Source of the DNA: an uncultured bacterium | GTDB lineage: Bacteria; Bacteroidota; Bacteroidia; Bacteroidales; Bacteroidaceae | DNA length: 64,000 nt | Direction of reading: 5' to 3' | Assembly (NCBI GenBank): GCA_945829115.1 | Contig: CALZTP010000003.1 | Coordinates: 1-64,000 of the forward strand | Shown here: one piece after another, positions 27,339 to 54,168 of the stretch | Numbering within the stretch: the stretch's first letter is position 1 | Layout: every line of letters starts with the position of its first letter | Notes under the pieces: generated by a model | Seen by the model: only the letters and a program-made list of their open reading frames with translations | What the model was told of the DNA's origin: nothing | The model's database searches: none | Translations under genes and position numbers: made by a program

Positions 27339-28031
27339 CTATTCCTCAACGATTTGGAAAGGGTCTTCCACATGAACTGGGGCAGCTTGAGTATGCGTAG
27401 AGTCTGAAGAGAGCACAATGCCGTCATCGGCTGCCTCTATGTCTGGATCAAGGAATCCAAAGTCGTCACCTCCGTCATATGCTCCGTTTCCCACCTGCAG
27501 AACAACCATAGCATCGAGGGGGACACGGTCGCCAACGGCGAGTGACTTTCCTCGGCAAAGGATTCCATACACCCAGTCTTTCTCTCCAGCAATCATTCTT
27601 GGCTCTCCGACTTTAAAGCCAAGGATTTTCAGTCGTGCCGTGGCTTCACGAAGCGAACTGTTGTCGATGATGTCCGGCACCACGAGTGTTGGTTTCTTTG
27701 AGGAATTAATGGAAACGTAGATTATTCTTCCGTTCTTTACCTTCTGTCCGGCGGCTGGAGTCTGATGGAGTATGCACCCTGGAGGAAGCAGACGATTGTA
27801 GCCCGTATCTGAGACAGCAATCTGCAGTCCTGCTGTTTCCATTATCTTCTCTGCGTCTTCAAATCTTTTGTTCAAGACTTCGGGCACACTGATTTCCTTG
27901 CCGTGTTGTGTGTATATGGCACTTCCGAACGAGAGCGCCACAGCCACAAGCACCACAACAATCAGCATAGCCAGCAGATTAAAAATTAGGTATTTGCTGA
28001 ACAGTTTATGTATGAATGTTTTTGTCTCCAT
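27339..28031 (-). CDS. Membrane-anchored PASTA domain protein
   Basis: A 230-aa protein (start taken at the second Met, METKTF) with a single membrane helix (about 18-40) followed by two PASTA domains (about 45-110 and 115-182), each with the VPEV/VPDI opening and a proline-rich GxxVxxGxxI ending. PASTA domains bind peptidoglycan fragments or beta-lactams in kinases and PBPs; here there is no kinase or transpeptidase domain. The tail (185-231) is acidic and probably disordered. It heads the rluD-ddl unit, close to a strong promoter at 28056-28086. Confidence 0.88.
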   Translation of the reverse strand: METKTFIHKLFSKYLIFNLLAMLIVVVLVAVALSFGSAIYTQHGKEISVPEVLNKRFEDAEKIMETAGLQIAVSDTGYNRLLPPGCILHQTPAAGQKVKNGRIIYVSINSSKKPTLVVPDIIDNSSLREATARLKILGFKVGEPRMIAGEKDWVYGILCRGKSLAVGDRVPLDAMVVLQVGNGAYDGGDDFGFLDPDIEAADDGIVLSSDSTHTQAAPVHVEDPFQIVEE

Positions 28032-28055
28032 CAAATGTTAACGATAAAATTTCCA

Positions 28056-28086
28056 CAAAGGTACAAAAAAATTCATATTTTACAAA
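28056..28086 (-). promoter_or_regulatory. Promoter of the PASTA-rluD-ddl operon
   Basis: On the minus strand TTTG (complement of 28083-28086), then 19 nt, then TACCTTTG (complement of 28056-28063). Transcription would begin near 28050, about 20 nt upstream of the start codon. Confidence 0.8.
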
Positions 28087-28138: not shown

Positions 28139-28215
28139 AAACACAAGGCAGAAAAGGGCGATATCATTTAGAATAGGGCAGCTATGTTGCTCCTTCAGGG
28201 CTATGATATGAACAT
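28139..28215 (-). repeat. Dispersed intergenic repeat, copy 1
   Basis: On the minus strand this segment shares a perfect 17-mer, TTCATATCATAGCCCTG (28196-28212), and further blocks TATTCTAA (28168-28175) and TCGCCCTTT (28153-28161) with 34304-34360, in the same order and with nearly the same spacing. The sequence is non-coding. It directly abuts the 11-bp tandem array that starts at 28210. Confidence 0.7.
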
Positions 28216-28330
28216 ATCTGACTCATATCTAACTCATATCTAACTCATATCTAACTCATATCTAATATATGACTTACATATGACTTACATATGACTTACA
28301 TATGACCAGCATATACCTGACATATACTGG
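28210..28330. repeat. Array of eleven 11-bp units in two mirrored halves
   Basis: From 28210 to 28330 the sequence falls into exactly eleven 11-bp units. Four identical units ACTCATATCTA occupy 28221-28264. Three or four units of the ACATATGACTT type follow at 28265-28308. The outer units are degenerate (GAACATATCTG; GCATATACCTG; ACATATACTGG). In another phase, the first type reads AACTCATATCT and the reverse complement of the second reads AAGTCATATGT, differing at 2 of 11 positions, so the two halves are diverged inverted copies of one unit. There is no reading frame worth calling. It lies upstream of the PASTA operon promoter and after the rpmH terminator. Confidence 0.9.
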
Positions 28331-28373
28331 CGAAATACCATTTCTATATGACATCGTCACTTGGCATAAAAGC

Positions 28374-28414
28374 AAAAAAGCAGCGTAAAGACTGAGTCTT
28401 CAGCTGCTTTTTTT
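28374..28414 (-). terminator. rpmH terminator
   Basis: AAAAAAGCAGC (28374-28384) pairs with GCTGCTTTTTT (28403-28413), about 30 nt after the rpmH stop codon. On the minus strand the stem is followed by a T-run; because both arms end in A/T tracts it could work in either direction. Confidence 0.88.
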
Positions 28415-28442: not shown

Positions 28443-28598
28443 TTACTTGCCGTGATTCTCGTCAGAAACAGTGAGCTTCTTACGGCCATGAGCACGACGA
28501 GAAGCAAGTACGCGACGACCATTCTTGGTCTTCATACGCTCGCGGAAACCATGCTTGTTAACGCGACGACGGTTGTGTGGCTGGAATGTTCTTTTCAT
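28443..28598 (-). CDS. rpmH: 50S ribosomal protein L34
   Basis: A 51-aa basic ribosomal protein. The start is the Met of [12 protein letters not shown] (28598); the open frame extends 18 codons further upstream, but those residues do not belong to L34. The core [27 protein letters not shown] is the family signature region. The short tail TVSDENHGK is usual for Bacteroidota. No rnpA lies next to it, unlike the arrangement in many other bacteria. Confidence 0.97.
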
Positions 28599-28641
28599 TG
28601 TTTTATTCTTGTTTTTATTGATTTTTCCACAATTCGGGATG

Positions 28642-32381: not shown

Positions 32382-32942
32382 ATGACAATCAATGAGAAAG
32401 CCATAGCAGAGGGTATTCGCAAAGGCGAAAACCGTGCCGTGAAGGAGTTCTACAACTCCTTCGGAGGGCTTCTTACGTCTGTCTGTTCTCGTTACATCAC
32501 CAACGACGATGATGTAAAAGATATTCTGCAAGAGTCAATGATAAGCATAATAACCAACATTCAATCTTTTGAATATAAGGGTGTTGGCTCACTAAAGGCA
32601 TGGTCGGCAAGAATTGTTGTGAACCATGCCCTTGGCTTTTTACGCCAGAAGAAGAGAAGCAACGAACTGTTCATAGACTCTGGAAAGGATATTCCCGACC
32701 AAGACGCTGAAACACCGCCAGACATCGATGACATTCCTGCCGATGATGTCTTAGAAATGATTCGTGAACTCCCTGATGGCTACAGAATGGTGTTCAACCT
32801 CTATATCATTGAAGGGAGGAGTCATAAGGAAATCTCACAACTCTTAGGAATAAAAGCCGACTCCTCTGCATCTCAGTTGCATCGAGCAAAGGCTATACTT
32901 GCAAAAAAGATTACAGAATACAGAAAACGACAAGCATTATGA
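32382..32942 (+). CDS. ECF-type RNA polymerase sigma factor
   Basis: A 186-aa sigma-70 family protein with only regions 2 and 4. Region 2: RAVKEFYNSFGGLL, then DVKDILQESMISIITNIQSF and the melting helix SLKAWSARIVVNHALGFLRQ. Region 4: LPDGYRMVFNLYIIEGRSHK and the DNA-recognition part ISQLLGIKADSSASQLHRAK. The linker between them is acidic. Its stop overlaps the start of the next gene by 4 bp (ATGA), so the two are translationally coupled, which is typical for a sigma factor and its regulator. Confidence 0.93.
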   Translation: MTINEKAIAEGIRKGENRAVKEFYNSFGGLLTSVCSRYITNDDDVKDILQESMISIITNIQSFEYKGVGSLKAWSARIVVNHALGFLRQKKRSNELFIDSGKDIPDQDAETPPDIDDIPADDVLEMIRELPDGYRMVFNLYIIEGRSHKEISQLLGIKADSSASQLHRAKAILAKKITEYRKRQAL

Positions 32943-34258
32943 ACAACAATTGGTCTGAACAATTTCAAAGAAAACTGGACGGTCACAAACTGACTGCCCC
33001 AGAACTGTCATGGCCAGAGGTTGAAAAGGCACTTGACAAAAATAAAACACAGTCAAGAGGATTCTTGAACTGGACAGTCAACAAACCATGGAATAGACTC
33101 TCACACATTGCTGCTGCTTTTGCCGCTATTGTCGTTGTTGGAGGAACTGCTTTCTTTTTTCTTGACAATCCTAAAAACCAAGATGTTATAACAAAGGCAC
33201 AGAAGGAGAAGCGCATGATTGTTTCTAAGGAAATGGAGACAATAGAAACAGCTGAGACAGAGACACAACAAACGACTCTCCAAAGTGGTTTCGGAAATGA
33301 GAAAAAGCTCTTTACCTCAAATTCCAGAGATAATAGCGTGAAGGGGGAACATAGTCAAGAAATCATTAATAATCAAGAGGATATAAATAATCAAGAGGAT
33401 ATAAATAATCAAGAGGATATAAATAATCAACCAGTGAAAGAGAATCCAGAGAAGAAAGAGAATCCAGAAAGGAAAGAGAATCTGGAGAAGAAAGAGAATC
33501 TGGAAAAATATACCTCTCCACGCAGGAAATACCCTTACCATTCTGACTTTCCAGAGAAAGTTGGCAAGAAAAGGAATACAGAGAAACTTATTGCTGCCGT
33601 TTACCTAAACAATTCTGCAGCAGGCGAGAAAGGTGGGTCGTTTAGCAACATACAGAGCAGTCCTGTGTATGCTGGACCTTACGGTTCTGCACCAGAAGAG
33701 TTTCAGTATGGAGCACTTAACTTCCTTGCTAACAGCCGACCAAAAGAGGTAAACTATAGCCACAGTCACCCATGGAAGTTCGGCATCCACATGAGCTATG
33801 CCCTCAACGATTCATGGACACTCTCCTCTGGAGTGACATATAGCTATCTTCATTCTTCCTTTGACTATTCCGAAGGAAAGGCATCGGGAACAGGAAAGCA
33901 GAACCTCCACTACCTTGGCATTCCTCTCTCTGCAAGCTATTGTTTCCTAAAAGCAGGGAATCTGCGCCTCTATGCTACTGCCGGTGGTGAGATGGAGAAG
34001 CTGATAGGTGGAAAAAGAACTCTTAGTGGTTCAAACATCCCAGAAGATTTGGAAAGTGAGACGGTGAAGGAATCGTCTCTGCAATGGTCGGTGAATGGCG
34101 GTATAGGAGCAGAATATCGCCTCTCCCCTACCCTCGGCTTCTATCTTGAGCCTGGCATCTCACATTATTTCAACAATGGTAGTGACATAGAAAACTACTA
34201 TAAGGAGCACTCCACCGCATTCTCCTTAAACATCGGAATGAGGATTGTGTTCAAGTAA
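32939..34258 (+). CDS. Membrane/beta-barrel protein coupled to the sigma factor (candidate anti-sigma factor)
   Basis: A 439-aa protein of unusual layout. Residues 1-52 are polar and probably cytoplasmic (WSEQFQRKLDGHKL, SWPEVEKALDK), followed by one membrane helix (about 56-76). Residues 80-210 form a low-complexity charged linker with hexapeptide repeats, QEDINN x3 and KENPEK-type x4. Residues 270-439 look like an outer-membrane beta-barrel: alternating strands such as WKFGIHMSYALNDSWTLSSG and a terminal FSLNIGMRIVFK. The N-terminal part could hold the sigma factor at the inner membrane while the barrel end lies in the outer membrane. No zinc-finger anti-sigma motif is seen. The anti-sigma role is inferred from gene coupling alone. 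Confidence 0.7.
   Translation: MNNNWSEQFQRKLDGHKLTAPELSWPEVEKALDKNKTQSRGFLNWTVNKPWNRLSHIAAAFAAIVVVGGTAFFFLDNPKNQDVITKAQKEKRMIVSKEMETIETAETETQQTTLQSGFGNEKKLFTSNSRDNSVKGEHSQEIINNQEDINNQEDINNQEDINNQPVKENPEKKENPERKENLEKKENLEKYTSPRRKYPYHSDFPEKVGKKRNTEKLIAAVYLNNSAAGEKGGSFSNIQSSPVYAGPYGSAPEEFQYGALNFLANSRPKEVNYSHSHPWKFGIHMSYALNDSWTLSSGVTYSYLHSSFDYSEGKASGTGKQNLHYLGIPLSASYCFLKAGNLRLYATAGGEMEKLIGGKRTLSGSNIPEDLESETVKESSLQWSVNGGIGAEYRLSPTLGFYLEPGISHYFNNGSDIENYYKEHSTAFSLNIGMRIVFK
33368..33508 (+). repeat. Two in-frame 18-bp tandem arrays
   Basis: AATAATCAAGAGGATATA is repeated three times at 33368-33421 with a half unit after it. A different 18-bp unit beginning AAAGAGAAT occurs four times at 33437-33508 with small changes. 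Both encode hexapeptides in the periplasmic linker of the sigma-linked protein, so gain or loss of units keeps the frame. Confidence 0.92.
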
Positions 34259-54051: not shown

Positions 54052-54083
54052 AAGGTGGGTTTTATACATCCCCACCTTTTTTG
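54052..54083. terminator. Hairpin upstream of the PL11 gene
   Basis: AAGGTGGG (54052-54059) pairs with CCCACCTT (54071-54078), followed by TTTT on the plus strand and a T-rich stretch on the minus strand. It may end the S9 peptidase transcript, which runs on the minus strand. Confidence 0.5.
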
Positions 54084-54087
54084 TATG

Positions 54088-54129
54088 CTTTTTCTTATAT
54101 ACTTTTTCTTATATACTTTTTCTTATATT
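54088..54129. repeat. Three 14-bp tandem repeats
   Basis: CTTTTTCTTATATA is repeated at 54088-54101 and 54102-54115, with a third copy at 54116-54129 differing in its last base. It lies between the S9 peptidase and PL11 genes and is non-coding. Confidence 0.88.
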
Positions 54130-54168
54130 CTTCTATTACATGCTTTTTCTCCAAAGCCAATATTTTTT

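Follow-up and report, generated by a model that had tools for sequence, protein, structure and literature searches.

Between rpmH and the gene for a PASTA-domain protein, in a stretch of 64,000 nucleotides (here called the window) from an uncultured member of the Bacteroidaceae, lies a run of short units that follow one another at about one turn of the double helix. What is such an array for, and does it belong to the genes beside it? A preliminary description of the locus offered a protein-nucleating array, a bent-DNA element or a slippage-prone regulatory repeat of the PASTA operon as possible answers.

Results

Two inverted arms meet at a 9-bp junction

The array is intergenic, occupies positions 28213-28331 and contains eleven ATAT cores, one for each of the eleven units that the preliminary description had recorded. 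No open reading frame passes through it, in keeping with the absence of coding potential noted there. The intervals between successive cores are four of 11 bp, one of 9 bp and five of 11 bp, so the earlier statement that every unit is exactly 11 bp holds for all steps but one: phase is broken between the halves by the 9-bp step from 28258 to 28267, which coincides with the change of unit word. The left arm (the C-arm, plus strand, 28213-28261) has five cores at 11-bp steps, reads YATATC from outer to inner end and consists of CATATCTGACT, three units of CATATCTAACT and CATATCTAAT. The right arm (the G-arm, minus strand, 28267-28331) has six cores at 11-bp steps and drifts outward through TATATGACTTA, two units of CATATGACTTA, CATATGACCAG, CATATACCTGA and CATATACTGGC; on the minus strand it reads CATATGTAAGT. 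Counted as simple words, ACTCATATCTA is present in four copies and ACATATGACTT in three, the latter preceded by a copy that starts with T and followed by three drifting units. At the junction, ATAT-CTAAT-ATAT (28258-28270, without strand), both word and orientation switch. When CATATCTAACT is compared with the minus-strand CATATGTAAGT, the same base is found at 9 of 11 positions and the other two differ by G/C, so that the idea of the halves as diverged inverted copies stands as far as inversion goes, with these two G/C differences between the arms.

The periodicity is pronounced, the lag-11 identity of the array being 0.81 against a best value of 0.54 at any lag from 5 to 24 among 2000 dinucleotide shuffles. 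The left flank (28180-28212) holds only short, weak repeats found elsewhere, and the array is therefore not a piece of a larger repeat. A CRISPR array was considered and rejected, as the 11-bp units are contiguous and lack unique spacers. Two other repeats were noticed in the window: a 14-bp tandem array of about five copies of TATACTTTTTCTTA at 54076-54150, and 18-bp tandem repeats (AATAATCAAGAGGATATA, then GAAAGAGAATCCAGAGAA) at 33351-33500, within an open reading frame (32939-34258) in which they encode repeated short peptides.

Both flanking genes lie on the minus strand. The PASTA-domain protein gene (27342-28034) is the first of a co-oriented set that includes RNA pseudouridine synthase and D-Ala-D-Ala ligase (Ddl), and on the other side are rpmH (28443-28604), encoding ribosomal protein L34, and, among the further neighbours in the window, EF-P. 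A pattern match to the Bacteroidetes promoter consensus, TTTG-N19-TACCTTTG (28056-28086, minus strand), predicts a promoter for the PASTA gene that neighbours the array and is not part of it; its -33 element at about 28086 is some 124 bp from the array edge, with the array upstream, so the promoter placed about 120 bp away in the preliminary description is recovered as a prediction. On the far side, folding predicts an intrinsic terminator for rpmH (28374-28413, minus strand), a hairpin of about -21 kcal/mol followed by a T run, and the array lies downstream of it; this segment also has a self-match in the genome search. With a predicted terminator on one side and a predicted promoter on the other, the array would separate two predicted transcripts, a placement that favours a role as DNA at this locus.

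The array is repeated at unrelated loci of its genome

Elsewhere in its own Prevotella draft genome (2.72 Mb) the window array has matches that extend over 35-130 bp and are 74-92% identical to it. About fifteen such arrays were found, all intergenic, with from 6 to 16 or more units. A search for the architecture itself (two sets of three ATAT cores at 11-bp steps, separated by one 9-bp step) returned nine exact loci, namely the window array and eight others, a tenth with one mismatch and several near ones, and the 9-bp junction is common to ten arrays of the genome. When up to three mismatches were allowed there were 67 matches, a total that counts neighbouring registers of one array separately, against 8 for the reversed word. 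A search for the word CATATG, which assumes no period, put 45 of 47 pairs of neighbours within 60 bp at a distance of 11 bp. A related but different element occurs in two copies (G000:C1:38049-38126, in L020, and G000:C22:31073-31129, in L070), where a non-repeated centre (TTTTCTGATAAAATATATGA and TTCTCCGCTAAAATATATGA, respectively) lies between phased ATAT words.

This dispersal bears directly on the proposal that the array acts locally on the PASTA operon, as an upstream regulatory element or a variable-number switch. Such a role would be in accord with the predicted PASTA promoter lying 124 bp downstream; however, the same array is present at about fifteen unrelated loci, and none stands beside a PASTA gene in 70 other Prevotella loci. 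We consider a slippage-prone regulator of this operon highly unlikely.

Where both neighbours were called, with rpmH taken as a neighbour of the window array and plain open reading frames serving as genes outside the window, 12 of 15 arrays lie between co-directional genes, three between convergent genes and none in a divergent gap. The length-weighted expectation for divergent gaps is 19%, and the chance of none in 15 is about 0.04, so avoidance of these gaps is suggestive only. The orientation of G-arm and C-arm relative to gene direction is mixed by eye.

Comparison of the sibling arrays reveals which features are retained. The outer base before ATAT is a pyrimidine in 48 of 49 left units and 48 of 49 right units; because a pyrimidine precedes ATAT reading inward on both sides, the two arms have opposite orientations, and a simple palindrome does not describe the unit. 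In the canonical orientation one arm carries mostly the same word across arrays (CATATGTAAGT, CATATGTAGGT, CATATGCTGGT), whereas the word of the other arm differs from array to array yet is fairly homogeneous within each, and the junction amounts to one step that is 2 bp shorter, precisely at the word change. Across eight units in the right arm of array C59 the ATAT does not vary, while the spacer columns are 18-46% identical, and array C18 is similar, with drifted spacers and with the ATAT columns and the 11-bp step kept. The arrays were found partly through the ATAT pattern, so the conservation of the cores is slightly ascertained.

Inverted arms could also be read as the two strands of an RNA structure, in which case the arrays would be transcribed as long imperfect hairpins acting at mRNA 3' ends. 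A-form RNA has 11 bp per turn, the window array folds as a single hairpin (z about -6.5 and -7.8) whose 5-nt loop falls at the junction, the arrays are positioned 3' of genes, and arm pairing is slightly better within arrays than between them. However, only 43% of spacer positions form Watson-Crick pairs, and the excess fades once G-U pairs are allowed (p from 0.004 to 0.07). Pairing is 29-38% in arrays C46, C34 and C32a, and C18 retains register and junction without a central hairpin. The predicted signals on either side of the window array also count against transcription as a 3' element, and no Rfam family matched at the gathering threshold. Although the window array folds strongly, the weak spacer pairing and the example of C18 lead us to regard an RNA element as improbable.

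Phased ATAT cores might also act without a dedicated protein if flexible steps in phase bend the DNA intrinsically. Two curvature models, which are built on dinucleotide parameters, predict arrays C75 and G049 to be curved; however, the window array scores 1.15 against 1.09±0.05 for shuffles (85th percentile), and most siblings are uncurved in either model. Curvature was rejected as a common property of the arrays, and the bent-DNA interpretation retains very little probability.

Arrays in other Prevotella species

The window word has no match in 397 other Prevotella genomes, nor does the window array match plasmids, phages or viral contigs, and on the strength of these searches the word is specific to the window genome. 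The preliminary description had held that absence from close relatives would speak against the array: the sequence is indeed absent, but the genus shows the architecture repeatedly, built from other words. The analysis covered stretches of draft genomes, most of them MAGs. A periodicity scan of about 1.1 Mb from about 110 stretches, all from this genus, found 20 intergenic arrays, 16 with period 22 and four with period 11, against four at lag 21 and one each at lags 12, 20 and 23. The scan also showed 7-bp intergenic repeats to be abundant (28 intergenic; AACTGTC and GAATTGT/CAATTGT families, for example L153 828-1046 and L190 1133-1327), a second common class beside the 11- and 22-bp arrays.

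Each species has its own word, repeated at 11 bp or, more often, at 22 bp with a palindromic unit. Arrays of 11 bp with other words are found in UBA2456 (G398, at eight places), G049 and G032. The window genome has compact two-arm arrays; in G032, by contrast, two blocks of 11-bp units (L161 3191-3274 and 3798-3939), of ACTACATATTA and its inverse ATATGTAGTTA, are inverted relative to each other and separated by about 520 bp. The nearest relatives compared, which are too distant to offer an empty site (G125, G144 and G060, with PASTA protein identity of 57-58%), have 22-bp arrays of AAAGGTNACCTTT, and G140 has several tens of arrays of TATATGGGCCATATA, which have inverted ends. Genomes sampled more than once have mostly one word each; G026 has two.

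In the nearly closed genome G061, at least 159 sites form at least 97 clusters, and among the sites listed each of the 62 distances between centres within a cluster is 22, 44 or 66 bp, however the sites are oriented. In G140, palindromes of another word, AAAG-N5-CTTT, stand beside TATATGGCCCATATA units; of 18 such cases, 14 have a distance of 22 bp and 2 a distance of 44 bp. The TATATGGSCCATATA arrays of L221-L240, from the same genome, likewise carry AAAG-N5-CTTT units at their edges in the same 22-bp register; this flanking word is similar to the one in G060, G125 and G144, as though array edges preserved an older word. Palindromic arrays with a 21-bp period occur at L178 11319-11429 (G079) and at L190 1402-1488 and 18447-18521 (G127), and the two-turn spacing is therefore 21 bp in some species. 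Arrays in L148, L149 and L150 (G398) contain runs of N: assemblies seem to be broken or blurred at such repeats, and in this respect the arrays matter for assembly.

Discussion

The reading that we favour, with a probability of roughly 0.5, is that the arrays offer, at scattered loci, sites in phase on which a putative DNA-binding protein would assemble along one side of the helix. Because the register outlasts changes of word and orientation, and the cores outlast the drift of their spacers, a reader of the same helix face at every turn, or every two turns, is suggested. According to this model each unit would present a short core (here YATATS, that is ATAT with its outer pyrimidine) on one face of the helix per turn, and the protein would load cooperatively on these cores. 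In arrays of the window type two inward-facing arms would meet at a dyad, where the fixed 9-bp spacing may set a head-to-head contact; the inverted arms and fixed junction suggest that assembly either starts from the dyad or runs towards it. In most other Prevotella the palindromic site at every two turns (22 bp) would fit the binding of one protein dimer to every two turns. Sites would be copied and amplified inside each genome, giving each species its own word, while selection keeps the helical register. Nucleoid organisation, bridging or control of topology at gene ends are likelier roles than control of one operon. The preliminary description is in this way partly supported: of its suggestions the protein-nucleating array best fits the wider data, namely the exact register, the drift of spacers around retained cores and the inverted arms at a fixed junction, whereas bent DNA and a slippage-prone local regulator fit poorly.

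Several considerations count against this reading. The words are so divergent between species that one conserved protein with sequence specificity is difficult to envisage, and unit length could also be kept by tandem amplification alone. Repeats of 7 bp and 8 bp are common in Prevotella genomes too, and not all tandem repeats in them are helical.

The main rival, which we consider possible but doubtful, is a selfish or neutral palindromic minisatellite, spread between genes by transposition or template switching, locally expanded and without function, in the manner of REP/BIME elements or BrickBuilt. By genomic habit these are the nearest known systems. Like REP/BIME elements, the Prevotella arrays have many dispersed intergenic copies, palindromic units, positions mostly by gene ends and genome-specific sequence, and the use of one word per genome, with homogeneous units within arrays, would be expected of a minisatellite; so would the inverted ends of the G140 arrays, and the position of the window genome's arrays mostly away from divergent promoter gaps, if these are tolerated insertions. 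The Prevotella units differ, however, in being 11 or 22 bp long and in keeping exact helical register whatever the word or orientation, and in the window genome they are asymmetric and arranged in two inverted arms. The RAYT gene (Y1_Tnp, PF01797), the source of mobility expected for such elements, is absent from five array-bearing genomes, the window genome (G000), G144, G125, G060 and G398, which does not fit this rival; PF01797 is present in G061, G140 and G049. BrickBuilt, a MITE of Porphyromonas gingivalis, is intergenic, has about 19 copies and contains tandem short repeats of a 23-nt unit between a leader and a tail with IS5-like terminal inverted repeats (PMC4596501). It shares with the arrays the bacterial order of the window genome, the intergenic location and the short tandem repeats inside, and differs from them in that 11 arrays of the window genome have neither shared flanks (leader or tail) nor terminal inverted repeats, and have units of 11 bp. 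Moreover, without constraint, a minisatellite would not be expected to hold an exact 22-bp register across opposite orientations and different words, nor to keep its cores amid spacer drift.

By working principle, the one-turn-repeat centromeres of plasmids are the nearest analogy to the phased protein sites that we favour. In parC of R1, 11-bp repeats are bound by ParR (PMC9426499). In R388, StbA binds the stbDRs, which comprise two sets of five 9-bp repeats with 2-bp spacing (PMC3098194). The likeness lies in two sets of direct repeats at 11-bp steps, and these systems may serve as a working model for cooperative binding to one face. However, the Prevotella arrays are chromosomal, lie at 15-100 places and have inverted arms with a 9-bp junction. 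A period near 11 bp is also known from the genome-wide A/T periodicity of bacteria, which is enriched between genes in E. coli (PMC516772, PMC4132750, PMC7537859); that is a weak statistical signal, whereas the Prevotella arrays are discrete and exact and have species words. With no partition genes beside the window array, and with RAYT genes and terminal repeats missing from the window genome, the arrays fit none of these systems as members. No description of an 11-bp or 22-bp repeat class in Prevotella or Bacteroidetes was found in the open-access literature, which is not proof of absence.

Binding of the proposed kind leads to a clear prediction, that half-turn insertions abolish it and full-turn insertions do not. 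A bolder version of the model, which we put forward tentatively and think rather unlikely, is that tens to about 100 centromere-like phased arrays per Prevotella chromosome serve as nucleation sites for filaments of a nucleoid or topology protein, with the word turning over and the register kept. If true, the arrays would be a bacterial counterpart to satellite DNA, evolving fast in sequence and conserved in architectural role. If the register is the conserved feature, the arrays would point to a new DNA-binding system common in a major genus of the gut and rumen, and to fast turnover of sequence under a fixed geometric constraint.
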